Shown: positions 31,331 to 56,531 of the stretch, one piece after another
Position numbering within the stretch: position 1 is the first letter of the stretch
How the letters are laid out: each line of letters starts with the position of its first letter
NCBI RefSeq assembly: GCF_035989305.1
Contig: NZ_CP108514.1
Span: 8,970,501 to 9,034,500, forward strand
Length of the DNA: 64,000 bases
Direction: 5' to 3'
Source of the DNA: Streptomyces sp. NBC_01233
Lineage (GTDB): Bacteria; Actinomycetota; Actinomycetes; Streptomycetales; Streptomycetaceae
Translations under genes and position numbers: made by a program
Notes under the pieces: generated by a model
Told to the model about the DNA's origin: nothing
The model's input: the letters and a program-made list of their open reading frames with translations, nothing else
Database searches by the model: none

Positions 31331-31375
31331 TTTCTACGGAGTCGCACTTCCCTACGTAAAGTGCACCTTCGTACA
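31331..31375 (-). promoter_or_regulatory. Cluster operator/promoter site 1 (CitE-PKS operon)
   Basis: Read toward the CitE gene: operator TGTACGAAGG followed by TGCACTTTACG (31375-31355), then 18 bp, then -10 box TAGAAA (31336-31331). TTTACG sits at the -35 position, so a bound protein would act as a class II activator. One of six matching sites. Confidence 0.85.
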
Positions 31376-31390
31376 TGTCAGGCGATCTGA

Positions 31391-31434
31391 TGTACAAAGG
31401 TTCAATTTACGGGCGGTGGCCGCGTGAGTAGGAC
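31391..31434 (+). promoter_or_regulatory. Cluster operator/promoter site 2 (P450-ferredoxin operon)
   Basis: Operator TGTACAAAGG followed by TTCAATTTACG (31391-31411), 17 bp, then TAGGAC (31429-31434) as -10. It faces away from site 1 with 15 bp between the operators. Transcription would begin at about the ATG at 31442, giving a leaderless or near-leaderless message. Confidence 0.82.
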
Positions 31435-31441
31435 TGAGGGC

Positions 31442-32647
31442 ATGTCGACGTCGGCGGAAGTGCCTTTCTATCCCATGGAGAGGGCGGCCAAGTGCCCCCT
31501 TGACCTACCTCCTGAGCTCCAGAAGATCTCCACGGACAGTCCCGTGTCCCGGGTGCGGATCTGGGACGGCAATGTGGCTTGGCTGGTCACCGGATATGCC
31601 GAGGCCCGGGCGGTACTGACCGACCCGAGGGTCAGCTCCGACCAGTCCCGGCCCGGGTACACCTTCGCCGCACCGCAAGCGAAGATCTTCCACAACCGCA
31701 ACAGGTCGATGCCCACGATGGACGACCCCGAGCACGCGACCCTGCGCCGCATGGTGACCGGTGACTTCGCGAACCGGAAGATGGAGCTGCTCCGCCCCAA
31801 GTTCCAGCAGATGGTCGATGGGCTGATCGACGACATGCTGGCGGCCGGCAACAGCGCAGATCTGTTCAGCCAGCTCGCGGTGCCGATGTCCTCCACCGCG
31901 ATCTGCGAGATCCTGGGCGTGCACAATGAAGAGGGCGTCAGGTTCTCGAAGTTGGGCAAAATCATGGCGTCGCCCGCGTCGACGCCGGAGGACAACGTCA
32001 AGGCCGTTGATGACATGCGCGCCCTGCTGCGCTCGCTCGTCGAGCGGAGCAAGACCGACCCCGGCGACGGCGTCATCGGGCATCTGGTCAGCGCCGGTGA
32101 AGTGCCAGACGAGGAGATCGTCGCCACGGCGCTGCTGCTGATGGCGGCCGGCCACGGCGCGACCGCCCACATGACCACCCTGGGCACCATGGCGCTGCTG
32201 GCCAACCCCGACCAGCTGGCCCTCATCCGCGCATCACGTGACCCCAAGTTCATCGCGAACGCGGTCGAGGAACTGCTGCGATACCTCAGCGTCGCGCACC
32301 TGGGCAGGCGACGGGTCGCGATCGACGACATCGACATCGGCGGGGTGCTGATCCGCGCCGGTGAAGGCATCATCGTCGCGACGGACACCGCCAACCACGA
32401 CCCGAGTGCGTTCGAGGGCGATCCCGACGTGCTCGACCTGAACCGCGATGCGAGGCACCACCTCGCCTTCGGGTTCGGTGTCCACCAGTGCCTCGGTCAG
32501 CAACTTTCCCGCGTACTGCTGCAGGTGGTCTTCGGCACGCTGTACCGGCGCATTCCCACGCTCGCATTGACGGTCCCGGTGGACCGGCTGTCCTACAAAC
32601 TCGGATTGGCCATCTACGGGGTGAATGAACTCCCGGTGGCCTGGTAG
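31442..32647 (+). CDS. Cytochrome P450 (CYP105-like, tailoring 2)
   Basis: 401 residues from ATG 31442. An upstream in-frame GTG (31424) would overlap the predicted -10 box, so ATG is preferred. The N-terminus FYPMERAAKCPLDLPPEL is typical of CYP105-like enzymes. I-helix AAGHGATAH (about 235-243), ExxR at 277-280 (ELLR), heme loop FGFGVHQCLG with Cys350. It is the first gene of a four-gene plus-strand operon with its own ferredoxin 25 bp downstream. The I-helix lacks the usual acidic residue before Thr (GHGAT rather than GHETT), which may alter oxygen activation. An oxidative tailoring role is inferred; the substrate is unknown. Confidence 0.95.
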   Translation: MSTSAEVPFYPMERAAKCPLDLPPELQKISTDSPVSRVRIWDGNVAWLVTGYAEARAVLTDPRVSSDQSRPGYTFAAPQAKIFHNRNRSMPTMDDPEHATLRRMVTGDFANRKMELLRPKFQQMVDGLIDDMLAAGNSADLFSQLAVPMSSTAICEILGVHNEEGVRFSKLGKIMASPASTPEDNVKAVDDMRALLRSLVERSKTDPGDGVIGHLVSAGEVPDEEIVATALLLMAAGHGATAHMTTLGTMALLANPDQLALIRASRDPKFIANAVEELLRYLSVAHLGRRRVAIDDIDIGGVLIRAGEGIIVATDTANHDPSAFEGDPDVLDLNRDARHHLAFGFGVHQCLGQQLSRVLLQVVFGTLYRRIPTLALTVPVDRLSYKLGLAIYGVNELPVAW

Positions 32648-32672
32648 CGCTTCGGCAAGGAGAAGTCTCACT

Positions 32673-32867
32673 GTGCGGATTCACCTGGACAGGGACAAGT
32701 GCGTCGGATCGGGCCTGTGCGTACTCGCCGCGCCGGAATGGTTCGACCAGGACGAGGACGGGATTGCGATCGTCCTGGACGACCGGGCATCGGGCGAAGG
32801 GGAGGACGCGGTGGAACAAGCCGCGTACACCTGCCCGGCCCTCGCCATCGACCTCGACTCGGAATAG
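32673..32867 (+). CDS. Small ferredoxin, P450 partner 2
   Basis: 64 residues from GTG 32673 with AAGGAGA ten bases upstream. The ORF could be opened earlier, but the extra residues belong to the end of the P450 gene in another frame. CVGSGLC (Cys9 and Cys15) and a C-terminal TCPALAI provide the three ligands of a 3Fe-4S-type cluster. It delivers electrons to the P450 encoded just upstream. The phosphotransferase gene starts 4 bp after its stop. Confidence 0.93.
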   Translation: MRIHLDRDKCVGSGLCVLAAPEWFDQDEDGIAIVLDDRASGEGEDAVEQAAYTCPALAIDLDSE

Positions 32868-32871
32868 TTCA

Positions 32872-33732
32872 ATGGAGCAAGACCAGCACGTGGTTGATCC
32901 GGGCACCCTTTCCCCCCGCGCGGTCTCGCTGAGAGAGAACTGGGGCGTGGTGCCTGGCACGGTGCTCACGGCGATCGGGGAGCAGACCGGTCGGATCCAC
33001 TCCGTCGCACCGGCGGAGACCGGATATAGCAGTCACATCGCCGCAACGCTGGACACCGAGCAAGGCCGGGTGTTCGTCAAGGGCATGCGAACCGGTGACG
33101 GACTCGCACGGATGCAGCAGAGCGAGGCGGTGGTGAACCCGCACGTCACTCCGATCGGTCCGCGACTGCTCTGGCGCGTCGTCACCGACGGGTGGGACGT
33201 GCTGGGCTTCGAGTACAAGAACGGCCGGATCGCCGACTTCGGCCAGTCGTCCGATGACCTTCCACTCGTGGTCGCGACCATGGCCGAGCTCGCCCGGATC
33301 GCCGCTCCCGGCCTGGAGCTGCCCTCGGCGGAGGACAGGTGGGCCGGCTATCTCGACCGGCAGGAGGACGCCGCGCTGCTGCACGGGGACCTGCTGCTGC
33401 ACACCGACTGGCACCACACCAACCTGCTCGTCACCCCGGCGAACCGGATGTACGTGGTCGACTGGGCCCTGGCCACCCGCGGGGCCGCGTGGATCGACCC
33501 GGCCTGCTGGGTCGTCTGGCTGGTCTACGCCGGGCACTCGGCGCCGGAGGCGGAAAGGTGGGCGGCGAAAGTGCACGCGTGGTCCGCCGCACCGGGCGGT
33601 GCGCTCGATGTCTTCGCTTCCGTGCTGGCCCGCTATTGGCAGAACATCGCGGATAACCACCCCAACACCATGACGTACCGCCTACGGGACGCCGCCGCAG
33701 CATGGGCGGCGCATCGGCACGCCCGAGCATGA
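32872..33732 (+). CDS. Aminoglycoside/choline-kinase-like phosphotransferase
   Basis: 286 residues from ATG 32872. The catalytic loop LLHTDWHHTNLLV (HxDxxxxN) and the following metal-binding VVDWAL place it in the APH/ECK kinase-like superfamily. The N-lobe has a lysine in RVFVKGM. Members phosphorylate small-molecule hydroxyls: antibiotics, choline, homoserine. In an operon with P450, ferredoxin and reductase it could inactivate the antibiotic inside the cell or act on an intermediate. Macrolide 2'-phosphotransferase-like function is possible but not shown. No sugar or amine biosynthesis genes are visible, so the acceptor is probably a polyketide hydroxyl (inference). Confidence 0.82.
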   Translation: MEQDQHVVDPGTLSPRAVSLRENWGVVPGTVLTAIGEQTGRIHSVAPAETGYSSHIAATLDTEQGRVFVKGMRTGDGLARMQQSEAVVNPHVTPIGPRLLWRVVTDGWDVLGFEYKNGRIADFGQSSDDLPLVVATMAELARIAAPGLELPSAEDRWAGYLDRQEDAALLHGDLLLHTDWHHTNLLVTPANRMYVVDWALATRGAAWIDPACWVVWLVYAGHSAPEAERWAAKVHAWSAAPGGALDVFASVLARYWQNIADNHPNTMTYRLRDAAAAWAAHRHARA

Positions 33733-33751
33733 GCCAGTGAGGTCGGAACAG

Positions 33752-34801
33752 ATGAAACACACATTGCTCGGCGCCAGCGGCGTCGGCACGTCGGTCTATG
33801 CGCTCGGCACCGCGACGTTCGGCGAGAGCGCCGACGAGGCCGAGGCCGGACGGGTGCTCGACACCTTCATGGACCTGGGCGGGCTGCTCGTGGACACCGC
33901 GGATGCCTATGCCGACGGGCGAGCCGAGCAGATCGTCGGCCGGTGGCTGCGCAGGCAGCCCGCCGAGATACGCGAGCGTCTGCTGCTCTCGACGAAGGGC
34001 GGCGGCTACACCACGAGCGCCGCGATGAACCAATGGGGCAACACCAGGCACAACCTCGCCCGTGCACTGGACCAGTCACTGACGCGGCTCGGTGTCGACT
34101 CGGTGACGCTCTATCAGATGCACACGTGGGATCCGCTGACACCGCTGGAGGAGACGCTGTCCTTCCTGGACGGTGCGGTCCGCCAGGGCAAGATCCAGTA
34201 CGTCGGCCTGTCCAACTTCACCGGGTGGCAGATACAGAAGTCCGTGGACCTGGCGAAGGAACTCGGCCTGGCGGGCCCGGTCACGTACCAGGCCCAGTAC
34301 AACCTGCTGTGCCGGGAGGTCGAATGGGAGATCATCCCGGCCGGCCGGGCGAACCGGCTGGGCCTGATGGCGTGGTCGCCGCTCTCCGGCGGGTTGCTCA
34401 CCGGCAAGTACTCCCCGCACCGGCATCTGGAGGGAGAGGCCCGGTTCACCGACAGCATGGAACGCGGGAAGATGCACAACAACTACGTCAACTCCCTCTA
34501 CCGGGCCCACATCGAGCGGGACCGCACCTGGAACGTACTGAAGATCCTTCGCGACATGGCCGGCACCCGGAACGTGACTCCTGCCGCGGTGGCGCTGGCC
34601 TGGGTGGCGGCGCGCCCGGGGGTGAGTGGCGTTGTTCTCGGCACCCGTGACGCCCAGCAGCTCGAGAGCAACCTCGCGGCACGCGACGTCGTGCTGGACG
34701 AGAACGACCTGGCGCTCCTGAATGAAGCCAGCGATCCCCGTCCCGCGGGATACCCGTACGGCGATTTCGGTGCCATGCAGCGAAGCCGCTCGCTCGAATG
34801 A
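33752..34801 (+). CDS. Aldo/keto reductase
   Basis: 349 residues from ATG 33752, preceded by GAGG at good spacing; an in-frame GTG at 33737 has no better site, and MKHTLLG matches usual AKR beginnings. The catalytic tetrad is visible: Asp48 and Tyr53 in DTADAY, Lys82 in STKGG, His124 in YQMHTW. The family uses NADPH to reduce ketones or aldehydes. Last gene of the P450-ferredoxin-kinase operon (19 bp after the kinase stop), followed by a hairpin. A role in ketone reduction during tailoring is likely; the substrate is unknown. Confidence 0.92.
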   Translation: MKHTLLGASGVGTSVYALGTATFGESADEAEAGRVLDTFMDLGGLLVDTADAYADGRAEQIVGRWLRRQPAEIRERLLLSTKGGGYTTSAAMNQWGNTRHNLARALDQSLTRLGVDSVTLYQMHTWDPLTPLEETLSFLDGAVRQGKIQYVGLSNFTGWQIQKSVDLAKELGLAGPVTYQAQYNLLCREVEWEIIPAGRANRLGLMAWSPLSGGLLTGKYSPHRHLEGEARFTDSMERGKMHNNYVNSLYRAHIERDRTWNVLKILRDMAGTRNVTPAAVALAWVAARPGVSGVVLGTRDAQQLESNLAARDVVLDENDLALLNEASDPRPAGYPYGDFGAMQRSRSLE

Positions 34802-34859
34802 TCCGCCGGGGGCGGCGAAGGCCAGTGCAGGATCGGTTCGCGCAATTTCCACCGCGCTC

Positions 34860-34881
34860 ATCAGGACAGGGATGTCCTGAT
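34860..34881 (+). terminator. Hairpin after the AKR gene
   Basis: Perfect 9-bp stem ATCAGGACA / TGTCCTGAT around GGGA, 58 bp after the AKR stop. No T-run follows, as is usual in Streptomyces. It separates the P450 operon from the dioxygenase promoter. Confidence 0.6.
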
Positions 34882-34944
34882 CGGTGGGGGACACCTATTC
34901 AAAAGAGACCGTCCAGTTGTGAATTGTCGATGCGTCTCACAGCA

Positions 34945-34989
34945 TGAACGAAAGTCCACTTTACGTCGAGCGTGCGCCGCAGCTAGAAA
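34945..34989 (+). promoter_or_regulatory. Cluster operator/promoter site 6 (dioxygenase)
   Basis: Operator TGAACGAAAG followed by TCCACTTTACG (34945-34965), 18 bp, then TAGAAA (34984-34989). Its core AAAGTCCACTTT is the most symmetric of the six sites. Start codon 44 bp downstream of the -10 box. Confidence 0.82.
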
Positions 34990-35032
34990 ATAACGTAGTC
35001 GCCAGGCATGCCAAAAGATGATGGGAACTGAC

Positions 35033-35830
35033 GTGACCGACACGACACCCAAAAATGCCCCCTATGCTGTCGCGGAAGAATACGTAACCAACTTCCGGGA
35101 ATACGGCTTCACACACATCCCCGGCCTGATAGCCGCGGACGAAGTCGCGCGGTGGCGCGAGATCGCGTTGGACACGATCGAAAGCGACGGCAGGCGGGCT
35201 GGTATGGGCGGCGGGGGCACGGCCCTCAGGACCACCTCAGACCCGTGGTGGCAGCATGACAGCCTGAGCGGCCTCGTCCGCCACCCCCGTGTCGGTGCAG
35301 TGGCCGAGCAGCTGACCGGTATGCCGTTGCGCGTGTGGAGCGGACAGGCGTACGCCAAGCATCCGCACGATGAGGTGCCCACCATCTGGCACGAAGACCT
35401 CACCTGGACGCCGCTTGACTCGCCGGTCAACGTGAACGCCTGGATCGCCTTGGTCGACGTACCGGTCGAGCGGGGATGCCTGGTCTTCCTGCCCAACTCG
35501 CACAAGCGCCCCGGCCCGCATCGAGCCGATACGGTCGCTGCGAAGAGCAACGCGACGACGTATATGTTCGCGGAATGGCCGGAGCTGGAATGGGGCCCGC
35601 GGGTCACGGTTCCGGTGCGCGCCGGCGACGTCACATTTCACCTGAGCACCGTCGGACACTCGAGCGGCGGCAATACGTCCGAGGAAGCGCGGCTGGCCTT
35701 CATCACCTCCTACACCGGTGCGACGGCGGTCTTCCAGCCGCGTCCCGGCCACCTCCACCTGGACAAGGATCTGGAGCCCGGCCAACCGCTGTTCGACGAC
35801 CGCTACCCCCGAATCTCGAGCTTCACTTAG
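35033..35830 (+). CDS. Phytanoyl-CoA-type Fe(II)/2-oxoglutarate dioxygenase
   Basis: 265 residues from GTG 35033 (GGGA six bases upstream). Earlier in-frame ATGs at 35018 and 35021 exist. I prefer GTG because the decayed paralogue at 39893 aligns from exactly this codon. Iron ligands: His120 and Asp122 in WHEDLTW, distal His209 in STVGHSSGG; 2-oxoglutarate-binding Arg220. Such enzymes hydroxylate, desaturate or form ether and epoxide bonds on natural products. It stands alone behind an activator-type promoter. In a nargenicin-type pathway the C8-C13 ether bridge needs an oxidative step and this is a good candidate (inference). Confidence 0.92.
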   Translation: MTDTTPKNAPYAVAEEYVTNFREYGFTHIPGLIAADEVARWREIALDTIESDGRRAGMGGGGTALRTTSDPWWQHDSLSGLVRHPRVGAVAEQLTGMPLRVWSGQAYAKHPHDEVPTIWHEDLTWTPLDSPVNVNAWIALVDVPVERGCLVFLPNSHKRPGPHRADTVAAKSNATTYMFAEWPELEWGPRVTVPVRAGDVTFHLSTVGHSSGGNTSEEARLAFITSYTGATAVFQPRPGHLHLDKDLEPGQPLFDDRYPRISSFT

Positions 35831-39039: not shown

Positions 39040-39675
39040 TCAATGGACGATACGGTACTTGATGTGGGTGACCTTGGGCGATGGAACGACCTTCACGAGT
39101 TCCAGGGTCGGGTCGCCGACGTCCAGCAGCAACCGTTCGCCGGCACCCAGCACGATCGGGACGAGGTGTACGTAGAGCTCGTCGAGCATCCCGGCGGCGA
39201 GGAACTGCCGGACGGTCTCGGCTCCGCCGGCGATCGAGACGGCCTGCCCGCCGGCAGCGCGGCGGGCCTGTTCAAGCGCGGCTTCGATGCCCTCGGTCAC
39301 GAAGGTGAACGTGGTGCCACCCCGCATTTCCAGCGGCTCCCGTGGATAGTGGGTGAGCACGAAAACAGGTGCGCGGAAGGCCGGTTCCTCGCCCCACCAG
39401 CCGTGCCAGGACTCGTCCCAGGGGCCTTCGCCGCCACCGAACATGTGCCGCCCCATGATGTAGGCGCCGACCCCGTCGAGGACTTCCTCGATGACCTGGC
39501 AGTCGACGGTCTGCTCACCGCCCTGGCGGCCCTGATGCTCATGCCATGCCTTGCTGGCGAACACCCACTGGTAGAGGCGCATCCCGCCCACGCCGACCGG
39601 GTTCTTCGCGCTCTGGTCGGGGCCGGCGACGAAGCCGTCAAGGGACATCGAGACGTGGCAACTGACGATGCTCAT
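39040..39675 (-). CDS. RibD C-terminal/DHFR-like reductase
   Basis: 211 residues from ATG 39675. N-terminal VSCHVSMSLDGFVAGPDQS is the signature of the stand-alone RibD-C/dihydrofolate-reductase-like family common in actinomycetes, followed by AYIMGRHMF and a nucleotide-binding SIAGGAETVRQFL. Members are NADPH-dependent reductases, often without a known substrate. The start overlaps the stop of the dioxygenase remnant as ATGA, so translation is probably coupled to it and transcription may come from cluster promoter site 5. Whether it serves the pathway or was captured by rearrangement is unclear. Confidence 0.85.
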   Translation of the reverse strand: MSIVSCHVSMSLDGFVAGPDQSAKNPVGVGGMRLYQWVFASKAWHEHQGRQGGEQTVDCQVIEEVLDGVGAYIMGRHMFGGGEGPWDESWHGWWGEEPAFRAPVFVLTHYPREPLEMRGGTTFTFVTEGIEAALEQARRAAGGQAVSIAGGAETVRQFLAAGMLDELYVHLVPIVLGAGERLLLDVGDPTLELVKVVPSPKVTHIKYRIVH

Positions 39676-39893
39676 GCCCTGATGCCCTTTTGCGAAGTCG
39701 TGGACCCGTGGGCAGCAGTCGTCGGATGGCAATCCTCCGGGTTCCACGAAGCTGTGCGGCTTGGCTCACGGAATCGCGCCGTGTCCTTCCCCATCACCAG
39801 GCGCGGGACGCGGGTGGGTCCGGCCTCCATGAATCCGGTGACGAATTGCTCCGCGACGGCGCACGGCTTGGTCTGGCGAGTCGTGTCGGTCAA
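39672..39893 (-). pseudogene. 5' remnant of a second phytanoyl-CoA-type dioxygenase
   Basis: 73 codons from TTG 39893. The first 45 or so residues align with the dioxygenase at 35033: TDTTRQTKPCAVAEQFVTGF here against TDTTPKNAPYAVAEEYVTNF there, then G-T-R/H-x-P-x-L and AR-RE. Homology stops near residue 50, and no iron-binding motif remains. The last codons are unrelated and end in an ATGA overlap with the reductase gene. Its promoter, operator site 5, is also preserved. It is either dead or kept only as a translated leader for the reductase. Confidence 0.82.
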
Positions 39894-39955
39894 TGCGGCT
39901 CTCCCGTACTCATACAGGCGTGATGAACGGACTCTTCATGGTCGGCGCACGACAA

Positions 39956-40000
39956 TTCTTAGGCACGATGCGGTGCGCATGGAAAGTGAACCTTTGTCCA
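39956..40000 (-). promoter_or_regulatory. Cluster operator/promoter site 5 (dioxygenase remnant/reductase)
   Basis: Read toward the remnant: TGGACAAAGG followed by TTCACTTTCCA (40000-39980), 18 bp, then TAAGAA (39961-39956). The -35 part is slightly degraded (TTTCCA). About 63 bp before the TTG start. Confidence 0.75.
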
Positions 40001-47000: not shown

Positions 47001-47571
47001 GCTGGACGGAGCGGAGCACATCTTGGCCCGGAACCGAGACACTTCTATCGCGGATCTCCTGGGCTCTGGGCGGACAGAGGGGATCGTCAAGCTTGCCGGC
47101 CTGATCACCTCGGTCGACAAGCGGGTGAACAAGGCGGGGAACCCGTGGGCGATCATCAGCCTGGCCGACCGCGACGCCGAGATGGAGGTGCTGTTCTTCC
47201 CCAAGGCGTACATGCTGGTCCAGCACGAACTCATCGAAGACAACGTGATCGCGACCAGCGGACGGTTGAACGAGCGCGACGGTACGGTCTCGGTGTTCGG
47301 GGAGGCAGTACAGGCACTTGACATCGCATCGGCCGAACACGGCGGTCTATCGCCGATCCTGATCACCGTCACGGAGTCGAAGATCACGCCGAAAATCGTC
47401 GCTGAGATGAAGCACTCTTTCAGCAGCCACCCTGGTCAGACCCCGGTACGGCTGAAGGTTGAAGGGCGCCAGAAGACGACCGTGTACGAACTTGGCTTCC
47501 TGATCGACCCCGACCCCGTCGCCTCCGAGATCAAGAGCCTACTGGGAACCGGTGTATGGAGTCTGGCCTGA
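44014..47571 (+). CDS. dnaE: DNA polymerase III alpha subunit (DnaE paralogue, likely self-resistance)
   Basis: Replicative polymerase catalytic subunit, 1185 residues, full length, from GTG 44014 (GAGGAG ten bases upstream). N-terminal PHP domain (HLHVHTEYSMLDGA); polymerase palm with catalytic Asp425 and Asp427 in PDVDLDFDD and Asp589 in KMDFLGLRNL; GPGRGSATGS; fingers VFQLDGAAMRQLL; tail with HhH and OB-fold (about 990-1090). All three catalytic Asp are present, so it should be active. A housekeeping dnaE is not expected among tailoring genes. Nargenicin-type polyketides inhibit DnaE, and a dnaE homologue has to my recollection been described in the nargenicin cluster. I infer a drug-tolerant second copy. 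Flanked by an IS4-type transposase gene and a convergent flavin reductase. No cluster-type operator precedes it. Confidence 0.95.
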   Translation: MADNFVHLHVHTEYSMLDGAAKNSKLIAEAERQGMPAVAMSDHGNMFGAYEFFQTAKTTAVKPIIGIEAYLAPESRHHKKPVFWGRGGVRGAAADGGEGGKDVSGGGRFTHMTMWAKNTQGLRNLFRLSSIASIEGQFPAGKPRMDMELIAEHSEGIIGTTGCPSGAVQTRLRLGQWDEAVKVASAYQDILGKENYFLELMDHGLDIERDVRADLLKLADHLAIPLLATNDSHYVTADQADAHDSLLCIGVGKNKDDPNRFKFSGSGYYVKTATEMRELFRELPQACDNTLLIAEMVEPYDEVFDYVDRMPQFDVPEGETQESWLRKVTLDGLRERYGDPVPQKCLDRFEIEMKVIGPMGFSSYFLVVSDICQHARRSGIPLGPGRGSATGSIVAYATGITEICPLEHGLLFERFLNPERINPPDVDLDFDDRQRDQMVRYVTEKYGSSHTAQVNTFGTIKAKAAVKDAGRILGYPFAMGDRITKAMPPDANGKGVPLAKLFDKDHARYSEGAEIRAMIENEPDVRKIYETGLGIEGLVRGTGVHAAAVILSSEPLIDLVPLHMRSKDGVIITGFDYPSCENMGLIKMDFLGLRNLGIIDHAIKTIEQNRGVQIETAKIPLDDKKTYELLARGDTLGVFQLDGAAMRQLLRLMVPNQFEDLSAVGALYRPGPMGANTHINYAHRKNGRQEVLPIHPELKEALEPILGLTYHLLVYQEQVMAIARELAGYSFGGADLLRRAMGKKKPEVLAAEFEKFHAGMNERGFSDEACQAVWDVMLPFSGYGFNKSHSAAYGLVSYWTAYLKANYPAEYMAALLTSVGDDKDKSAVYLADARSNGIKVLSPDVNESVADFTAVGDDVRFGLQAVRNVGLPVIDSLIASRAEKGPFSSFADFLDKVDLPVCNKRAIDSMIKSGAFDSLGHTRQGLAAIAEGAVDSVIGVKKQQAIGQDDLFGAIDDGSGTPGIGLDFTIGDREWPRKLLLSQEREMLGLYVSGHPLDGAEHILARNRDTSIADLLGSGRTEGIVKLAGLITSVDKRVNKAGNPWAIISLADRDAEMEVLFFPKAYMLVQHELIEDNVIATSGRLNERDGTVSVFGEAVQALDIASAEHGGLSPILITVTESKITPKIVAEMKHSFSSHPGQTPVRLKVEGRQKTTVYELGFLIDPDPVASEIKSLLGTGVWSLA

Positions 47572-48239: not shown

Positions 48240-49001
48240 TCAGGCCCGCTCGGCAAGCTGGACGAAGGTGCCGGAGCGAGTCCGCACGGTGCCGCCGTGC
48301 CGTTCGATCACTGCACGCAGCCCGTCGAGCAAGGTCGCCAACTGTTCTGGCGCCAGTTGCTGGTGGTCGCTGAAGGTAGTGACCAGTCCTACCCACTCCT
48401 CCGCTGTCAGGGTGAGTTCCCATGAGTAGGTGTCCGAACTGCAGATGGCGAAAGCAGGATCGTCCGCGAAGGAATCAGGGGCGTTCCGGGTGCTCTTGGG
48501 GACACCGCCGGCGACGGTGACGTCCGGTGCCCACTCCCGGTACACGGCTTCGAATGCCCTGAGGAGGGCCGGTTCCGCCTCGTGGACGTTCCAGAAACGT
48601 GCGATCAGTCCTCCCGGGTTGAGCAGGTCGGCCGCCTTCCGCCGCCCCTCAACGGGGTCGATCCAGTGCCAGGCATCGCCACTGGTGAGGAGGTCGAAGG
48701 TCCGTCCTGCTCCGTCCCAGTCCTCAAACATCGCGACTTCAACGGTCACTCCGTTGGCCCTTGCCATCTCCGCCATCCGGCTGTCGGGTTCAAGGCCGAG
48801 GACTGGGAGACGGTGCTTGGCGAGCGCCGTCGCGACCTTCCCCGTGCCACAGCCGATGTCGAGCACCGCGGCCGGTGACGACGCCACGAGGCGATTGATG
48901 AGCGCCTCCGGGTATGAAGGGCGGTAAAGGTCGTACTGCTGAGCTACGGAACCGAACGCTCCGGCCCTGGCACGGTCGAGGTACCGCTTGCTGAAGGACA
49001 T
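48240..49001 (-). CDS. Class I SAM-dependent methyltransferase
   Basis: 253 residues from ATG 49001 (AAGGGAG upstream, within the palindrome GGGAGCAGCTCCC). SAM motif I VLDIGCGTGK near residue 48, motif II-like GLEPDSRMAEMA, and DAWHWIDP, a pattern common in small-molecule methyltransferases of the type 11 group. It transfers a methyl group from S-adenosylmethionine, probably to an oxygen of the product; the C2 methoxy of the nargenicin/branimycin group is one possible site (inference). 165 bp separate it from the CCR gene upstream, so it may have its own promoter. Confidence 0.88.
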   Translation of the reverse strand: MSFSKRYLDRARAGAFGSVAQQYDLYRPSYPEALINRLVASSPAAVLDIGCGTGKVATALAKHRLPVLGLEPDSRMAEMARANGVTVEVAMFEDWDGAGRTFDLLTSGDAWHWIDPVEGRRKAADLLNPGGLIARFWNVHEAEPALLRAFEAVYREWAPDVTVAGGVPKSTRNAPDSFADDPAFAICSSDTYSWELTLTAEEWVGLVTTFSDHQQLAPEQLATLLDGLRAVIERHGGTVRTRSGTFVQLAERA

Positions 49002-49166
49002 GCGGGAGCTGCTCCCTTTGGTTGGCTCAGCCGACGGAGGCCCGGTAGAGGTGCTGGTTCAGCTGCGCTGCGGGTGTGGGGCTCGCGGCCGCAGCCGCGT
49101 CGGAAACGGAACTGGAGGGGACGTGTTCAGGCCGGCCGGAGCACGTCGGGGGTACGCCCGACCGCT

Positions 49167-50504
49167 TCAGACGTTGCGGAAGCGGTTGATCGCGTCGAGG
49201 TGCCGGGCGCGCATCTCGTGGTCGCGGACGCCGAGGCCCTCCTCGGGGGCGAGGGCGAGGACGCCGACCTTGCCCTGGTGGAGGTTGCGGTGGACGTCGT
49301 AGGCGGCCTGGCCGGTCTCCTCCAGGGAGTAGACCTTCGACAGGGTGGGGTGGATCTTGCCCTTGGCGACCAGGCGGTTGGCCTCCCACGCCTCGCGGTA
49401 GTTCGCGAAGTGCGAGCCGACGATCTTCTTCAGCGACATCCACAGGTAGCGGTTGTCGTACTCGTGCATGTAGCCCGAGGTGGAGGCGCAGGTGGTGATG
49501 GTGCCGCCCTTGCGGGTGACGTAGACCGAGGCGCCGAAGGTCTCGCGGCCCGGGTGCTCGAAGACGATGTCGATGTCCTCGCCGCCGGTCAGCTCGCGGA
49601 TGCGCTTGCCGAAGCGCTTCCACTCCTTGGGGTCCTGGGTGTGCTCGTCCTTCCAGAACTTGTAGCCCTCGGCGTTGCGGTCGATGACCGCCTCGGCGCC
49701 CATGGCGCGGCAGATGGCCGCCTTCTCGGGGCTGGAGACCACGCAGATGGGGTTGGCGCCGCCGGCGAGCGCGAACTGGGTGGCGTACGAGCCGAGGCCG
49801 CCGCTGGCGCCCCAGATCAGGACGTTGTCGCCCTGCTTCATGCCGGCGCCGTTGCGGGAGACCAGCTGGCGGTACGCGGTGGAGTTGACCAACCCCGAGG
49901 CTGCGGCCTCCTCCCAGCTGAGGTGGTCCGGCTTCGGCATCAGCTGGTTCGACTTGACCAGGGCGATCTCGGCCAGGCCGCCGAAGTTCGTCTCGAAGCC
50001 CCAGATGCGCTGCTCCGGGTCCATCATGGTGTCGCCGTGGCCGTCGGCGCTCTCCAGTTCGACGGACAGGCAATGCGCGACGACGTGGTCGCCCGGTTTC
50101 CAGGCGTTGACGCCCACGCCGGTACGCAGCACGACGCCTGCCAGGTCCGAGCCGACGACGTGGTAGGGCAGGTCGTGCCGTTTGGCCTGTGGCGAGAGCC
50201 GGCCGTACCTCTCCAGGAAGGCGAAGGTCGGGACGGGCTCGAAGATCGAGCTCCACACGGTGTTGTAGTTCACCGAGCTGGCCATCACGGCAACGAGGGC
50301 CTCACCCGGCCCCAGTTCCGGAACCGGCACCTCGTCCACATGCAGCGACTTGCGCGGATCCTTTGCAAGGCTGTCCATTCCTTCGAAGAGAGCGGTCTCA
50401 TCCTTTTGGACGGTCACCGCCCGGTACGACTGGGGTAGTGGCAGCGCACCGAAGTCGGCTGCCGTGCCGTCCGACGCGAGGATCGCGTCGAGAATGTCGT
50501 TCAC
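49167..50504 (-). CDS. ccr: Crotonyl-CoA carboxylase/reductase family enzyme
   Basis: 445 residues from GTG 50504 (GGAGG nine bases upstream), the normal CCR length. MDR-superfamily fold; SVNYNTVWSSIFEP, WKPGDHVVAHC, GLVNSTAYRQLVS, NADP-binding IWGASGGLGSYATQFALAGG and the FEHPGRETFG segment are CCR hallmarks. CCRs reduce and carboxylate 2-enoyl-CoA to alkylmalonyl-CoA. None of the six readable AT domains has an ethylmalonyl signature, so its product is used elsewhere: in later modules, in central acetate assimilation, or in building a side unit. It starts 47 bp after the CoA-transferase/ligase stop in the same operon. Confidence 0.95.
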   Translation of the reverse strand: MNDILDAILASDGTAADFGALPLPQSYRAVTVQKDETALFEGMDSLAKDPRKSLHVDEVPVPELGPGEALVAVMASSVNYNTVWSSIFEPVPTFAFLERYGRLSPQAKRHDLPYHVVGSDLAGVVLRTGVGVNAWKPGDHVVAHCLSVELESADGHGDTMMDPEQRIWGFETNFGGLAEIALVKSNQLMPKPDHLSWEEAAASGLVNSTAYRQLVSRNGAGMKQGDNVLIWGASGGLGSYATQFALAGGANPICVVSSPEKAAICRAMGAEAVIDRNAEGYKFWKDEHTQDPKEWKRFGKRIRELTGGEDIDIVFEHPGRETFGASVYVTRKGGTITTCASTSGYMHEYDNRYLWMSLKKIVGSHFANYREAWEANRLVAKGKIHPTLSKVYSLEETGQAAYDVHRNLHQGKVGVLALAPEEGLGVRDHEMRARHLDAINRFRNV

Positions 50505-50551
50505 ACTGGGCCTCCGGTGAATTGAGAGTTGAGGCGTTCGGGGACTGGCGG

Positions 50552-52840
50552 TCAATACACGCCCTCAATCACCGTTTCGCCGCCGAAGGTGTCGACCGGG
50601 GCGGGAGAGGACACCGAGTCGCCGATCTGTCCGGGCAGCCCAGGCACCCGGATGACGGTGTCCCGCTCAAGGTTGTGCGGCAGGAACATGCCTTTGCTGA
50701 CGTGGTTCATCACGATCTGCCCGCGCCTGCCGTACGGGACGGCCTCCCCGGTGGCCGGGTCGACGACCGTGAAGGTGACGACGGGGCTCCGCGGGTCGTA
50801 GACGATGTCCTCGTCCGGCCCGAGACCGGGCCGTTCCTGTGCACTCTCGAGGATCATGAGGCTGCCGTACCGGCTGAGCATCCGCACGTTCGGAAAATAC
50901 TCGTGCTGCAACTCGAAGCGCTCCTCGACGGTCATGTGCGCCCCGCCCCAGAACATCAGGTCGACCTTGGAATTGATCAGCTCGACCAGACGCGGATTGC
51001 GCGTACAGGCCCGCAGCAGAGGCGGCGTGACCACCAGCAGTGCCACCTGCTGCGTGCTGAGGATGTGCTCGGCCTGGCTGAGGAGGTGGTCGACGTAGGC
51101 CGCCGCTTGGTCGGTATCGCCTCGGCTGATCAGCTTCTTGACCCACCGGGGGTCCATGTCGATGGAGAACTTGATGGTGTTCTGCCGCTCGGCGATGTAG
51201 TCGTACATACCGCCGATCTTGTGTGGGCCGGTCGGTGTGAGGACCAGGATGTTCCCCGGATCGCGACCCGCGAACTGGGGGCCGTACAGCATGCGATTGA
51301 CGGCGCTCTCGATCCAGTCCGGCATGAGGATCGCCCGCTTCGGCGCTCCAGTTGTCCCGCCACTCTCGAAGACCCTTGGTGCCCCTGTCTTGGGTCCGTA
51401 CCCACGCGGGATGAGGTCCTCCACCGGCACCATGCGCAGTTCGTCGACGATGTTGGGGAACAGCCTCAGGTCATCGAAGGTCCGCACGTCGGTGATCGGG
51501 TCGAAGTCCAGGAGGGCCGCCCTCCTGAGCCAGAACGGGGAGCCTGTGTCGTTCCCGAAATGCCAGCGGATCGCCGTGCGAAGGTACTCTTCGGGGTCCG
51601 AAGGGTCGGTCGAGGGATCGAGTACATCCCAGCTCTGGTGTTCGGCCGTCTTGCTCATCGTTCCCTTCCCTGCCGCATCAGCAGTCTTGGGCTTCACGGC
51701 CTCGAGCACCGCCTCGGTGTGCTCTCCCAGCCGCGGGCCCGCCCACCGGACACTCCCCGGTGTGGCGGAAAGCCTGAAGGGCACGTTCTGCATACGGACG
51801 GAACCCAGCTCGTCGTCCGGAACGTCGATTGCCACGTTCCGGACTTGGAAGTGTGGGTCCTTCAGTACGTCGTCGACCTCGTAGATCGGTGCCACGGCGG
51901 CCTCCACCGCCTCGAACTCGGCGACGACCTCGTCGCGGCTGCGCTCCGCGATCCACCGCGACACCGCTTCGTCCACCACGGCACGGTGTGCGACGCGGCC
52001 GGTTCCGGTGGAGAACCATGCTTCTTCGATCAACTCCGGCCTGCCGACGAGCCGCATGACGCGATCCGCCACCGATTGTGCGGGGGCGGACACCGCCACC
52101 CAGCGGTCGTCCGCGCAGCGGTAGACGTTGCGCGGTGCGTTGCTGTTGGAGAGGTTTCCCACCCTGTCCGGCTTGAGTCCGAGCTTGTCGAACACGGGCA
52201 GCTGGGCACCGAGGGCGCCGATCATCGACTCGGTGATCGCCACGTCGGCGACCTGCCCTCGGCCTGTCAGGCCCCGGGCGTGCAGCGCGACCATCGTCGC
52301 GTAAGCCGCCTGCACGCCGGCCAAGGCATCGGCCAGTGGGAACGGGGGGAGCATGGGTGGTCCGTCGGGGTCTCCGGACATCGCGGCGAGTCCGCTCATC
52401 GCCTCGGCGAGCGTGCCGAAGCCAGGCCTGCTCGCGTACGGGCCGTCCTGGCCGAAACCCGTCACGCGGGTCAGGACCAGCCGCGGGTTGATCCGCTCCA
52501 GCACCTCGGGGCCTATACCCCAGCGTTCCAGCGTCCCAGGTCGGAAGTTCTCGATCACGACGTCCGCCTGCGCCGCGAGCTGGAGGAAGTGCTCACGGCC
52601 CTCAGGCTCCTTCAGGTCGAGCACCACGCTCTTCTTGTTGCGGTTGGCCACTTTCCAGAGCAGCGGCACGTCCTGGTACGCATGACCGAAGCGCCGCAGT
52701 GGGTCGCCGGACGGGTGCTCGACCTTGATCACGTCGGCGCCGTAGTCACCGAGCAGCGCCGCCGCGAACGGTCCGGCGAGCAGGGTGGCTATGTCGATGA
52801 CCGTGAGATCGGCCAGCGGAAGGGTCTTCGCCTCCTCCAC
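50552..52840 (-). CDS. CaiB/BaiF CoA-transferase fused to PaaK-like acyl-CoA ligase
   Basis: 762 residues from GTG 52840, 6 bp after the upstream stop. Residues 1-385 are a class III CoA-transferase (LLAGPFAAALLGDYGADVIK, then VEHP; ENFRPGTLERWG; catalytic Asp171 in FPLADALAG). Residues 395-762 are a phenylacetate-CoA-ligase-like adenylate former (ESGGTTGAPK ATP loop, LTPTGPHKIGG, LLVVTPPLLRA, YGSLM). Such a pairing can activate an acid and pass CoA to a second acid. The junction carries a good ribosome site and Met395, suggesting a fusion of two genes. It precedes CCR and follows two flavin monooxygenases, so it probably activates a carboxylic acid that becomes part of the product (inference). 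Confidence 0.93.
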   Translation of the reverse strand: MEEAKTLPLADLTVIDIATLLAGPFAAALLGDYGADVIKVEHPSGDPLRRFGHAYQDVPLLWKVANRNKKSVVLDLKEPEGREHFLQLAAQADVVIENFRPGTLERWGIGPEVLERINPRLVLTRVTGFGQDGPYASRPGFGTLAEAMSGLAAMSGDPDGPPMLPPFPLADALAGVQAAYATMVALHARGLTGRGQVADVAITESMIGALGAQLPVFDKLGLKPDRVGNLSNSNAPRNVYRCADDRWVAVSAPAQSVADRVMRLVGRPELIEEAWFSTGTGRVAHRAVVDEAVSRWIAERSRDEVVAEFEAVEAAVAPIYEVDDVLKDPHFQVRNVAIDVPDDELGSVRMQNVPFRLSATPGSVRWAGPRLGEHTEAVLEAVKPKTADAAGKGTMSKTAEHQSWDVLDPSTDPSDPEEYLRTAIRWHFGNDTGSPFWLRRAALLDFDPITDVRTFDDLRLFPNIVDELRMVPVEDLIPRGYGPKTGAPRVFESGGTTGAPKRAILMPDWIESAVNRMLYGPQFAGRDPGNILVLTPTGPHKIGGMYDYIAERQNTIKFSIDMDPRWVKKLISRGDTDQAAAYVDHLLSQAEHILSTQQVALLVVTPPLLRACTRNPRLVELINSKVDLMFWGGAHMTVEERFELQHEYFPNVRMLSRYGSLMILESAQERPGLGPDEDIVYDPRSPVVTFTVVDPATGEAVPYGRRGQIVMNHVSKGMFLPHNLERDTVIRVPGLPGQIGDSVSSPAPVDTFGGETVIEGVY

Positions 52841-52846
52841 AGGCCC

Positions 52847-53809
52847 TCACACCGCCCTTCGCCGGTCCGGAGGGCGAGGGAGTCCCAACCGGGCGCGCAG
52901 TGAGCCGTCCGCAGGCCGTGAGGTGCTGCTCCGCAGTGCTTTGGCGCGCTCCACCAGCGCGGAGTGGGCGCCCTCGGCAGACCCCGGCGGGGGTATCAGG
53001 ACGAAGCCGTCCACGGCATCGGTGCGGAAAAGCTCGTCGGCCCCGTGCGCCGGAACCTCGAGGAGGAGCCGCACGTCGGACTCCGCCCGCCCTCGGTGGC
53101 TCGCGGCCGCCCGGACGGTCTTGCCCATCTCCGCGACCTCGGCCGACCGCTCGGCGGGAACCACGGCGATATCGGCCACCCGTCCGGCGAACTCCGCGTC
53201 TTCGACAGTGAGGAGACGGCGTGCCAGTACGGGGTGTCCCTGTGGGGGACGGGCGATGTTGAGCGGGCCCGCGACATCGAAGTGCTCGCCCTTGTGGTCG
53301 AGCGCCCGGAGCCGATTCGGGAGGAAGTAGACCCCGGACTCGCGGTCGCGCAGGAAGGCATCGTCCTGGAAGCTGTCCCAGAGCCCGGTCACGACGTGGG
53401 CGAACTCTTCGGCGCGAGCCAACTGGCGATCCTGCGGACCGGCGGTCCCCTGCGCATAGTTGGCGGACTCTTGGTCGTCGCTGGGAGCGGCCGACTGCCA
53501 GCCCGCCCAGCCATGGCTCAGGTAGTCGATCGTCGCCAGCAGCCGGGCGACGTGGTAAGGCTCGAGCTGTTCGGTGGAGATGGTCGTGACGAGCCCGATC
53601 CCCTCGGTCGCTACCGCCAGGGCGGCGGCAAGCGTGCCGGCCTCGAACTCACCTACGCTGGCGGGCCCGACGGCCTGACGGTCACCGATCAGCAGGGCGT
53701 CGATGCCGGACCGTTGTGCGGAGCGCACGCGCTCGAGCGTCCGGCGGTAGGCCGTCCGGCCGGTCTCACCGTCATCCTGAGCGGTGACCAGAGGAGCGAA
53801 GAGCAGCAT
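52847..53809 (-). CDS. Luciferase-like flavin monooxygenase (short)
   Basis: 320 residues from ATG 53809 with GAGGTGAAC upstream. Beginning MLLFAPLVTAQDDGETGRTA, with IGLVTTISTEQLEPYHVARL, DYLSHGWAGWQSA and NIARPPQGHPVLA, it belongs to the bacterial luciferase-like FMNH2-dependent group and is related to its larger neighbour. About 100 residues shorter than NtaA/DszA-type enzymes, and the C-terminal part is condensed. It may form a heteromer with the neighbour or be a divergent oxygenase. Only 5 bp separate the two genes. It depends on an FMN reductase, one of which is at 47695. Confidence 0.88.
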   Translation of the reverse strand: MLLFAPLVTAQDDGETGRTAYRRTLERVRSAQRSGIDALLIGDRQAVGPASVGEFEAGTLAAALAVATEGIGLVTTISTEQLEPYHVARLLATIDYLSHGWAGWQSAAPSDDQESANYAQGTAGPQDRQLARAEEFAHVVTGLWDSFQDDAFLRDRESGVYFLPNRLRALDHKGEHFDVAGPLNIARPPQGHPVLARRLLTVEDAEFAGRVADIAVVPAERSAEVAEMGKTVRAAASHRGRAESDVRLLLEVPAHGADELFRTDAVDGFVLIPPPGSAEGAHSALVERAKALRSSTSRPADGSLRARLGLPRPPDRRRAV

Positions 53810-53814
53810 CCCGT

Positions 53815-55089
53815 TCACCTCTTTCCTGCCAGGGCCCCGTTGTACGGCACGTTCAGACCGAGGTTGTCGCGCAGTGTTCCGTCGACATAGGAGGTACGCA
53901 CCAGCCCTCGGCGGCGCAGCTCGGGCACCACCTGGTCCACGAAGTCCTCCAGGGAGCCCGGCAGATAGGGGAAGTCGACGATGAAGCCGTCGGCGCCACC
54001 CTGGATGAACAGGGTCTCCATGTGGTCGGCCAGCTGCTCGGGGGTGCCCGCCACTATGTCTCCGGCCTGTCGGAGCGATAGTTGACGCAAGGTGAGGTTT
54101 TCCCGGCGGGCGAGCTCTATCCACCGCTCTGCCGTGCTGTGCGAGTGGTTGGCCACCGGGAGGTCCGGTACGGGTCCGTCGAGCGGGTACCCGGTCAGGT
54201 CCACGTCGCCGAGCTGGTCCTGCAGGGCACGCAGCGCGACGATGTCCGGCATAAGCTCTTGGAGCTCGCGAAGTCGCTGCTTGGCCTCTGCCTCGGTACC
54301 GGCGACGATGGGTTGCAGGCCGACCCAGATCTGGATGTGCTCGGCGCTGCGGCCGTGCTCGACGGCGCGACGCTTCAGGTCGGCGTAGAAGTCCTGTGCG
54401 TCCGACAGCCTGGTGTGCCGGGTGAAGAGCACCTCTCCGTGCCGTGAGGCGAAGTCCCGACCCACCGGAGAAGCGCCCGCCTGGAAGAGGACCGGGCGTC
54501 CCTGCGGGGGCTGCGGGACGTTGAGCGGGCCGCGGACATGGAAGAACCTGCCCTTGTGGTCGATGGGCTTCCCACCGCTCGTCCACAGGCGGTTCACGAC
54601 CGAGACGAACTCATCGGCTCGCGTGTAGCGCAGGTCGTGCTCCATGTGTTCGGGGAAGCCGAAGTTGCGCGACTCCCACGGCGCGGCGGAAGTGACGATG
54701 TTCCACCCCGCACGGCCCCCACTGATGTGGTCGAGTGAGGCGAACTTGCGGGCGATGTCATAGGGAGTGTTGTAAGTGGTCGTCGCGGTCGCTGCCACAC
54801 CGATGTGTTCGGTCATCGCGGCGTACGCGGCCAGCAGCGCGAACGGCTCGAAGTGCTCGTTCCGCGCGGTTCGGCTCACGTGCTCGACGTCAGTTCCCCA
54901 AAGGGCCACTACGTCCGGAACGAAGACGCAGTCGAACACGCCCCGTTCGAGCGTCTCGGCGTTGCTCCGATGGAAGGCGAAATCGAGCTGGGCATCCGCC
55001 CGGGTCAATGGGTGCCGCCACGCGGCAATATGCCCTCCAGGGCCGTCGATGATGGCCCCGAGCCGTAGAAATCTCTCTTGCTGCGCCAT
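53815..55089 (-). CDS. NtaA/SnaA/DszA-type flavin monooxygenase
   Basis: 424 residues from ATG 55089 (AGGAA eight bases upstream); an ORF extension to 56088 lies over the P450 gene in another frame and is rejected. Family features: WRHPLTRADAQLDFAFHRSN, FVPDVVALWG, ATTTYNTPYDIARKFASLDH, ISGGRAGWNIVTSAAPWESR, GRPVLFQAGASPVGRDFAS. These FMNH2-dependent enzymes oxidise C-N, C-S or C-C bonds, including Baeyer-Villiger-type oxygen insertion. It needs the flavin reductase encoded in the same cluster. Follows the P450 gene by 26 bp in an operon started by promoter site 3. Confidence 0.93.
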   Translation of the reverse strand: MAQQERFLRLGAIIDGPGGHIAAWRHPLTRADAQLDFAFHRSNAETLERGVFDCVFVPDVVALWGTDVEHVSRTARNEHFEPFALLAAYAAMTEHIGVAATATTTYNTPYDIARKFASLDHISGGRAGWNIVTSAAPWESRNFGFPEHMEHDLRYTRADEFVSVVNRLWTSGGKPIDHKGRFFHVRGPLNVPQPPQGRPVLFQAGASPVGRDFASRHGEVLFTRHTRLSDAQDFYADLKRRAVEHGRSAEHIQIWVGLQPIVAGTEAEAKQRLRELQELMPDIVALRALQDQLGDVDLTGYPLDGPVPDLPVANHSHSTAERWIELARRENLTLRQLSLRQAGDIVAGTPEQLADHMETLFIQGGADGFIVDFPYLPGSLEDFVDQVVPELRRRGLVRTSYVDGTLRDNLGLNVPYNGALAGKR

Positions 55090-55115
55090 TGTTGCGTTCC
55101 TATCGAATCTAGACG

Positions 55116-56384
55116 TCAGCCCATCAAGGAATGCAGTTCGGTAGCCGTCTCCACATGCGGCCCCATACGGGGGCCGGGCGTGAATCGAGCCGGCATCTTC
55201 ACATATCCGTTGATCTGGCCGACCGTCGAATAGCGCTCGGCCTCCCCTTCGACGAGGTGGTAGTCCGGGAGGCGTCGCAGCACCTCCCCGATGACCACCT
55301 CGAAGTCCATGCGGGCGATGTGCCGGCCGATGCAGCGATGCACGCCGATCCCGAAGGCCGCCTGCTTGCGCGCGTCGCGGTCCAGGTCGACGGCGTCCGG
55401 CTGGGGAAACACCCGCGCGTCGAGGTTGGCCGCGGCCCACGACAGCAGAACCCGGTCGCCCGCCTTCACCGGGCAGCCACCGATCTCGGCGTCTTCCATG
55501 ACGGTCCGCCCGGCGCCCATCACGGGCGTGAAGTACCGGAGGAACTCGTCGCAGGTGCCCGGGATCAGTTCCGGCGAGTCGATCAGCCGCCGGCGGTCTG
55601 CCCGATTGCGGTCGAGGTGGTCCAGCGTCGACGCGAGCAGCGCCGTGGTCGTGTCCACGCCGCCCGGGATGACCGCGTTGCACGTGGCCAGGATGTCCTC
55701 GTCCGAGATCTTCCGACCGCCGATCTCCAGCTGGGTGAGGAAGCTGATGAAGTCGTCCCCCGGGTTCGCCCGGCGCTTCGGGATCAGCTCCCGCACGGTT
55801 TCGATGAGCTGGGCGAATCCTGCTTCCACACGGTCGAACTCCGGTGTGCCCGGGTGGGTGTACACCAGAGCGTGCACAACGTCCGCATACAGCCGCCAGT
55901 CGTCCATGGGCAGCCCGACGATGTCGAGGGTGATCAGCGCAGGGACCGGGTTGGAGAGATCCATGACGAGATCGATCTCGCCGCTCTCGATGTGCTGGTC
56001 GACGCACCAACTGGCGTACTGGGCGATCCGCGGCCGCAGTTTGCGCGCCGCGGTCGGCGAGAAGAAGACGTTCAGCGCCTTCCGCCATTCGAGGAACTCG
56101 GGCGGGTCGATCTCCAGCGGCAGGCCGCGGAACGAGGACGCGGGCACCACCGTCCCCTGCGGACGGCCAGGTTTGTTCGGGAGCTCGTGGGCGGACGAGA
56201 ACAGTTGGGGCTGATGCGCTACCTCCGAGACCTGTTGAAAGCCGGTCACCAGCCAGAAGCCGCCGTGGTGGCTACTGTGCGCCACCGGGCAGCGCGTATT
56301 CATCGCGATGTTGGTGGCCCACGGGTCGCTGGCGTACTCCGCCGAGTGATGGTCGAAGTCAACTTCCGGCGCTGTATCGGGCAT
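55116..56384 (-). CDS. Cytochrome P450 (tailoring 3)
   Basis: 422 residues from ATG 56384 (GAGG six bases upstream). In-frame ATG 56390 and TTG 56414 are alternatives, but TTG would sit at the predicted transcription start. I-helix GGVDTT at 241-246, ExxR at 280-283 (EFLR), heme loop FGIGVHRCIG with Cys351. N-terminal RCPVAHSSHHGGFWLVTGFQ resembles P450s of polyketide and terpene tailoring. No ferredoxin gene is adjacent, unlike the other two P450 genes, so it must share one of theirs or a host ferredoxin. It opens the operon that continues through monooxygenases, CoA-transferase/ligase and CCR. Confidence 0.95.
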   Translation of the reverse strand: MPDTAPEVDFDHHSAEYASDPWATNIAMNTRCPVAHSSHHGGFWLVTGFQQVSEVAHQPQLFSSAHELPNKPGRPQGTVVPASSFRGLPLEIDPPEFLEWRKALNVFFSPTAARKLRPRIAQYASWCVDQHIESGEIDLVMDLSNPVPALITLDIVGLPMDDWRLYADVVHALVYTHPGTPEFDRVEAGFAQLIETVRELIPKRRANPGDDFISFLTQLEIGGRKISDEDILATCNAVIPGGVDTTTALLASTLDHLDRNRADRRRLIDSPELIPGTCDEFLRYFTPVMGAGRTVMEDAEIGGCPVKAGDRVLLSWAAANLDARVFPQPDAVDLDRDARKQAAFGIGVHRCIGRHIARMDFEVVIGEVLRRLPDYHLVEGEAERYSTVGQINGYVKMPARFTPGPRMGPHVETATELHSLMG

Positions 56385-56428
56385 TCTCATCCTCGGGTCC
56401 GACCGACTGTGCAATGAACGTCATATAG

Positions 56429-56472
56429 TTACTAGTCGGTCGGCCTCCTGTCGTAAAGTGAACCTTCGTACA
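56429..56472 (-). promoter_or_regulatory. Cluster operator/promoter site 3 (P450-monooxygenase-CCR operon)
   Basis: Read toward the P450: TGTACGAAGG followed by TTCACTTTACG (56472-56452), 17 bp, then TAGTAA (56434-56429). The best match to the consensus. Predicted leader of about 35 nt. Confidence 0.85.
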
Positions 56473-56485
56473 CTCGAAGTAAACG

Positions 56486-56531
56486 TGCACGAAGGTTCAA
56501 TTCACAGCGCATGGCCCGGCATAGGTAAATA
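56486..56531 (+). promoter_or_regulatory. Cluster operator/promoter site 4 (esterase)
   Basis: TGCACGAAGG followed by TTCAATTCACA (56486-56506). -10 candidates are TAGGTA at 56522 (15 bp) or TAAATA at 56526 (19 bp), so the core promoter is weaker than the others. It forms a divergent pair with site 3, 13 bp apart. The predicted leader is about 170 nt. Confidence 0.72.

Follow-up and report, generated by a model that had tools for sequence, protein, structure and literature searches.

Eleven copies of a conserved operator in a roughly 90-kb polyketide cluster of Streptomyces sp. NBC_01233 very probably form one cluster-specific set of promoter signals, predicted to be bound and activated by a LuxR/GerE-type protein of 106 amino acids encoded in the same cluster. 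The window analyzed here is a stretch of 64,000 nucleotides (G000:C1:8970501-9034500, from a genome of 10.3 Mb); the luxR gene lies at 40672-40992 on its minus strand, and the operators are spread over about 88 kb (genome positions 8938500-9027006). Unless stated otherwise, coordinates are relative to the window, with negative values to the left of its first base.

Operator copies and their specificity

The initial annotation described a six-copy, cluster-wide operator with sites at 31355-31375 (-), 31391-31411 (+), 34945-34965 (+), 39980-40000 (-), 56452-56472 (-) and 56486-56506 (+). All six were recovered at these positions and strands with 0-2 mismatches to the consensus proposed at that time, and 100 dinucleotide shuffles of the window delivered no operator match. 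Every one of them faces a gene, in agreement with the uniform orientation that had been claimed; the number of copies was understated. Five further sites are located to the left of the window, at -32000 (-), -28313 (+), -23830 (+), -21126 (-) and -19967 (-). When 124 kb were scanned with a matrix built from the six sites, the five added sites scored 22.9-35.8 and the next-best match 10.4 bits; with an 11-site matrix and 164 kb scanned, the weakest of the 11 sites scored 27.3 and the next match, at -41223, 16.2.

The 21-base operator TGNACNAARGTNCAMTTNACR has 12 matches with up to two mismatches in the whole genome, 11 of them at 8938500-9027006 and one at 7255942; at up to three mismatches it merges with the background (28 matches versus 26 for a reversed-pattern control). 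The 17-base core TGNACNAARGTNCAMTT with up to one mismatch matches 11 times in the 10.3-Mb genome, and these are exactly the 11 cluster sites. Because the reversed pattern of this core yields 12 genome matches under the same limit, rarity would not be expected of such a core as such, which makes the lack of copies outside the cluster notable. Equally good matches scattered over the genome, which the initial annotation had named as one outcome that would count against a regulon, are thus rejected by the genome-wide counts of both patterns. Among 392 genomes of the genus, 12 contain the operator at no more than one mismatch: the genome studied here (G000) with nine matches, a second species (G341) with six, and ten others with one apiece.

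Promoter layout and dyad symmetry

The promoter layout was derived from a pool of 30 sites, consisting of the 11 sites of this cluster, 15 sites of the orthologous cluster of G341 and four sites of Kitasatospora sp. MAA19 (locus L093, 20 kb). Sites were accepted from a matrix score of 20 upwards in G000 and L093 and of 16.3 in G341; a limit of 16 would add the doubtful match at -41223 in G000. The dinucleotide TA, the start of the -10 box, is found 17 or 18 bp past the 21-mer in 26 of the 30 sites (9/11 here, 13/15 in G341, 4/4 in L093), while every other spacer from 6 to 33 bp has TA in at most three. Four sites deviate from this spacing: 56486 (TA at 15 and 19 bp), -19967 (TGAATT at 18 bp), G341:328947 (GAAACT at 18 bp) and G341:313927 (none).

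A -10-like box 17-18 bp downstream had been reported for five of the six window sites, and this holds. The predicted boxes are TAGAAA at 31331-31336 (site 31355, spacer 18), TAGGAC at 31429-31434 (site 31391, spacer 17), TAGAAA at 34984-34989 (site 34945, spacer 18), TAAGAA at 39956-39961 (site 39980, spacer 18) and TAGTAA at 56429-56434 (site 56452, spacer 17). At site 56486 a possible -10 box, TAAATA, is located at 56526-56531 with a spacer of 19. The box belonging to site 31391 ends 7 nt ahead of the ATG at 31442, so the P450 gene starting there probably gives a leaderless transcript, and translation would not begin at the GTG at 31424.

The dyad AARGTnnACYTT of the initial annotation (centre 12.5 of the 21-mer) was half a site off and is rejected: its complementarity is 0.54-0.56, below the 0.65-0.67 reached at the best centre, 7.5. 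Around the latter, positions 5:10 pair in 100% of the 30 sites, 4:11 and 2:13 in 97% each and 1:14 in 83%, with 7% for 3:12 and 20% for 6:9. The operator is therefore best read as the 14-bp dyad TGnACs-AA-rGTnCA with a 2-bp centre; what was taken for its right arm is mostly the -35 region. Several gammaproteobacterial versions are near-perfect palindromes of the form ATTGTACC-AA-GGTACAAT.

The typical promoter thus consists of the 14-bp dyad, one base, the hexamer in -35 position, 17-18 bp and a -10 box of the TAGRA type. With the -10 box placed at about -12, the dyad is centred near -44 and adjoins the -35 region. The hexamer is mostly TTTACG- or TTCACG-like, unlike the TTGACA consensus; TTGAC occurs in this position in only two of the 30 sites, both ahead of an MFS exporter gene (-21126 here and its orthologue in G341). 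A site beside -35 with a fixed spacing to -10, as found in 26 of the 30, fits the layout of a class II activator site, as first suggested. Operators at divergent promoters stand back to back with their starts 31-36 bp apart in both pairs of this cluster, in four of the five pairs of G341 and in both pairs of L093; the fifth pair of G341 is 49 bp apart.

The rearranged cluster of a second species

G341 possesses the same cluster in shuffled gene order, with operators still ahead of the same genes, which bears out the claim that the sites mark the genes belonging to the pathway. Its sites precede the orthologues of three methyltransferase genes (here at -32855, -23746 and -20883), of the TauD-like gene (-27704), of the MFS exporter gene (-22756), of the CitE-like operon, of the P450 operon (31442) and of the PhyH gene, and likewise that of the second P450 run (56384). 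The orthologue of the esterase gene comes after a methyltransferase gene that has the site. Site 39980 has its counterpart at the only PhyH-reductase promoter in G341 (389103). Four genes that are internal to runs here, encoding SnoaL-like, CoA transferase, polyketide synthase (PKS) and CCR proteins, have sites of their own in G341.

The LuxR protein

The predicted activator has 106 amino acids, or 139 if translation is started at 41091. In the longer form it matches Pfam GerE (PF00196) with 59.7 bits, well above the cut-off of 23.5, and its helix-turn-helix (HTH) domain is nearest in the PDB to the DNA-binding domains of LiaR, VraR, GerE and NarL. It is the only member of its subfamily in the genome: it scores 174.1 bits, and the next-best of 58 matches reaches 67.6, the model behind these scores including the protein itself. 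Pfam delivered HTH-type matches only (GerE and Sigma70_r4_2) and no PAS or ATPase domain; a receiver domain (Response_reg) was not matched at 1e-3 in either this protein or its G341 counterpart, and no NCBI family among those listed scored high enough to pass its cut-off. The matrix scans of 124 and 164 kb revealed no operator upstream of luxR, so that no autoregulation is apparent; the site closest to the luxR stop is 672 bp off.

Linkage of operator and luxR in other genomes

In three genomes of the genus (G003, G327 and G365) the final part of a small luxR gene contains the sequence TGAACGAAAGTCCAATTCACA, and in G024 the operator lies just past such a gene, so that four other genomes have a luxR homologue in contact with the operator. 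For a wider survey, 80 loci (L086-L165) were fetched with a LuxR protein model, A1, which comprises the window LuxR and five LuxR proteins that were found through an operator near them; the fetch is thus partly circular, and two of the loci, L101 and L102, nearly duplicate rows of A1. These loci contain 37 exact 14-base cores. No fewer than 31 of them fall within -60 to +600 bp of a luxR stop, that is, in 52.5 kb or 3.8% of the DNA (binomial p 1.6e-38, indicative only, as this interval was set with data already in view; closely related loci are also not independent). The other six are distributed over the remaining 1333.7 kb, and two of these are further operators of the Kitasatospora cluster. 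The 31 cores belong to 30 loci, 14 actinobacterial and 16 proteobacterial.

The operator begins within luxR, 40 or 46 bases from its end, in 13 of the 14 actinobacterial loci. In-frame operators, which help to encode the tail of the LuxR protein (MYQGTVS in L086), were found in L086-L089, L092, L094, L100-L102, L104-L106 and L109. Across the 392 genus genomes the LuxR model gave 35 matches of at least 105 bits in 34 genomes, the remainder reaching 96 bits at most. An exact core is present in 22 of the 29 genus loci kept (L181-L209), and in 18 of the 24 loci (L186-L209) from genomes without an A1 row, in L208 more than 600 bp from luxR. Seven of the 12 genomes with a site are among the 34 with such a LuxR match (Fisher p 1.2e-5, partly circular owing to the composition of A1). 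On a tree of the HTH domains the label 'core nearby' takes 11 changes as compared with 32.9 in shuffles, a contrast inflated by near-copies. The tree comprises 98 of 106 rows, eight lacking the motif; many of its forks are weak, and the LuxR proteins of the window and of G341 were labelled 'site' by hand. In their LuxR HTH, two of the genus loci are identical to named Streptomyces loci, consistent with Streptomyces as the genus.

Several points weigh against assigning the operator to the LuxR protein. As many as 50 of the 80 LuxR loci have no exact core near luxR, the interval of -60 to +600 bp was chosen after the data had been seen, and A1 included LuxR proteins found beside sites. Furthermore, the window LuxR is without the N-terminal part present in its counterparts of G341 and Kitasatospora, and it does not group with them in a weakly resolved tree. 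Finally, a LysR orthologue that is 80% identical to the left of two flanking LysR paralogues accompanies the G341 cluster, so that both full clusters contain LysR as well as LuxR. Co-occurrence there cannot separate the two regulators, and it is the remaining loci that argue for LuxR.

Alternative explanations

Binding of the operator by one or both of the LysR-type proteins, which flank the cluster one on each side (-34451..-33519 and 58454..59374), is considered unlikely. A LysR homologue is absent (tblastn, 1e-10) from 19 actinobacterial operator loci of up to 20 kb each; these were hand-picked from the core and matrix matches and include all 14 with a core near luxR, with L116 and L118 left out and L093 representing a partial cluster. 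In addition, the operator follows luxR across other cluster types, and a 14-bp dyad beside -35 differs from the long two-part site of LysR proteins. Between the two candidates named in the initial annotation, LuxR (40672) and LysR (58454), the linkage of operator and luxR across loci thus favours the former. The flanking LysR proteins are candidates for the trigger of luxR.

That LuxR represses these promoters by covering the -35 region is suggested by the dyad abutting it, where a bound dimer could block the polymerase. This is very improbable, since 28 of the 30 sites have no TTGAC in -35 position, and a weak -35 would be needless in a promoter controlled by a repressor alone; the one shared orientation and the near-fixed spacing at all sites also speak against repression. 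The same spacing to a conserved -10 would suit an extended -35 element of a dedicated alternative sigma factor, but the dyad symmetry, the wobble between 17 and 18 bp and the matching palindromes beside proteobacterial luxR genes make this explanation hardly credible. No gene for a sigma factor stood out among those called, of which only selected proteins were run through Pfam.

From the sequence we infer a class II LuxR regulon, predicted to involve binding and activation by LuxR, transcription with the main sigma factor and control over product formation. A LuxR dimer would occupy the dyad near -44, contact sigma at the poor -35 and recruit RNA polymerase carrying the main sigma factor, and in this manner one regulator would turn on precursor supply, PKS, tailoring and export together. 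Because the exporter promoter alone has TTGAC (-21126 and its G341 orthologue), it would be expected to keep some expression in the absence of the activator.

Predicted target genes and neighbouring features

The operon behind site 31355 (CitE-like, cyclase, P450, ferredoxin and PKS genes) begins with the P450, cyclase and HpcH/HpaI (CitE-like) genes at 28408-31157 (-), followed downstream by the first type I PKS gene at 10300-28380 (-), an open reading frame of 6026 amino acids whose domain type was assigned by eye; two more PKS reading frames continue leftward. Two Rfam ASpks matches (4630-4698 and 24121-24189) are located on the plus strand opposite the PKS genes; they are probably not RNAs but conserved stretches of PKS coding sequence. 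Where the PKS run ends, a tyrosine/serine phosphatase-like protein (by eye) is encoded at -19791..-19003, conserved in G341 with 79% identity.

In the opposite direction, site 31391 precedes the operon at 31442-34801 (+) with P450, ferredoxin-like, kinase-like and AKR-like genes; the Pfam match is to P450 only, and the 286-aa kinase-like protein is without one. Site 34945 precedes the PhyH dioxygenase gene at 35018-35830 (+), and site 39980 a PhyH-like remnant (39648-40000, judged by eye) and the RibD_C reductase gene at 39040-39648 (-). The PhyH-reductase operon of G341 thus appears to be split here, the intact PhyH gene having site 34945 and the remnant remaining behind the old site. Site 56452 stands before the run at 48240-56384 (-), which encodes a P450, two luciferase-like monooxygenases, a CoA transferase fusion, a CCR-like protein and a methyltransferase, and site 56486 the carboxylesterase gene at 56705-58159 (+). 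The operator of the TauD-like gene is placed about 600 bp before the called start here (-28313 to -27704) and 417 bp before it in G341 (C1:337091-337508); in both species this distance probably reflects a long leader or a small gene that was not called.

The initial annotation listed dnaE, MFS and luxR genes as being without the site. This is correct for the MFS-like genes at 37726 and -31709, for dnaE and for luxR, but not for the MFS gene at -22756..-21401, outside the window, which has one. The dnaE gene (44014-47571) encodes a second DNA polymerase III alpha subunit, 56% identical to the other full-length copy at 2625859, and is separated from luxR by a transposase-like gene at 42694-43899 (by eye from the translation). 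Its exclusion from the pathway for want of a site is weakened by a 68% identical dnaE that accompanies the G341 cluster. The cluster dnaE may encode a resistant version of the target; if so, this would point to DNA replication as what the product hits.

Wider family of the LuxR-operator pair

In L089 the pair stands ahead of a BTAD (SARP-type) gene with a nonribosomal peptide synthetase gene beyond (Pfam), and L086, L087 and L100 look alike by eye. L088 has a SARP-like gene; L105 has the pair ahead of an MFS gene, and L101 has it next to a PKS gene. The proteobacterial relatives of LuxR are longer, with about 200-256 amino acids; of two scanned for Response_reg, L147 gave a sub-threshold match and L126 none. 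The luxR relative follows ABC-transporter and HlyD genes in L126; in L147 a long gene with many Ig-like and cadherin-like repeats comes after it. Similar adhesin-like or secretion-type surroundings were seen by eye in L136, L154 and L160. The palindrome is located just after luxR in L126, L136, L147 and L154.

On balance we lean towards regarding the pair of HTH domain (recognition helix about TERTvKaH) and operator TGnACs-AA-rGTnCA as an ancient portable control module, which may have been adapted to antibiotic-type clusters of Streptomyces that are otherwise unrelated and may run large adhesin genes in Proteobacteria. In the Streptomyces clusters the operator is often embedded in the final 40-46 bases of the luxR coding sequence, so that the likely DNA target of the protein would spell its own tail. 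If so, a scan for the pair would list the content of each cluster promoter by promoter, and the tiny LuxR protein would be a general key to wake clusters.

Comparison with known systems

Where a cluster ends and which genes belong to it is usually guessed from the functions of the genes. In the present case both are drawn from the DNA by an operator that this genome reserves for one cluster, and which extends the cluster about 32 kb past the left edge of the window. A single small activator is named, and each target promoter is predicted almost to the base. As HTH domain and operator are paired again in further clusters and among Proteobacteria, they suggest a transferable rule by which small orphan LuxR proteins could be matched with their targets. 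A publication describing this operator was not found within the open-licence literature, which excludes most subscription journals. Among the matches listed, none was recognisable for a cluster combining LuxR with dnaE, CitE or PrpD, or for nargenicin-like self-resistance, that would point to the product.

SARPs are likewise cluster activators binding at -35. They bind heptamer direct repeats about 8 bp from -10, whereas the dyad described here ends 24-25 bp, and the conserved block 17-18 bp, before -10; direct repeats were not searched for as such. PAS-LuxR regulators such as PimM and PteF are also LuxR-type and encoded in polyketide clusters, but no PAS domain was found in the window LuxR, and the operator differs from that of PimM. 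One report places the PteF operator at 97 sites outside its own cluster (PMC9394381), whereas the TGNACNAARGTNCAMTT core occurs nowhere outside the cluster at up to one mismatch. The large LAL regulators LodR3 and SlnR share the LuxR-type HTH and the role of cluster-situated activator, LodR3 having 884 amino acids (PMC10100954). By contrast, the proteins considered here have about 100-270 amino acids, with no ATPase domain found. With NarL/FixJ-type class II activators such as GerE and NarL the system has in common the GerE HTH and a dyad with a 2-bp centre beside -35; it differs from them in that no receiver domain was found in the window protein, the operator is unlike the GerE and NarL sites, and the pair resides in natural-product clusters.

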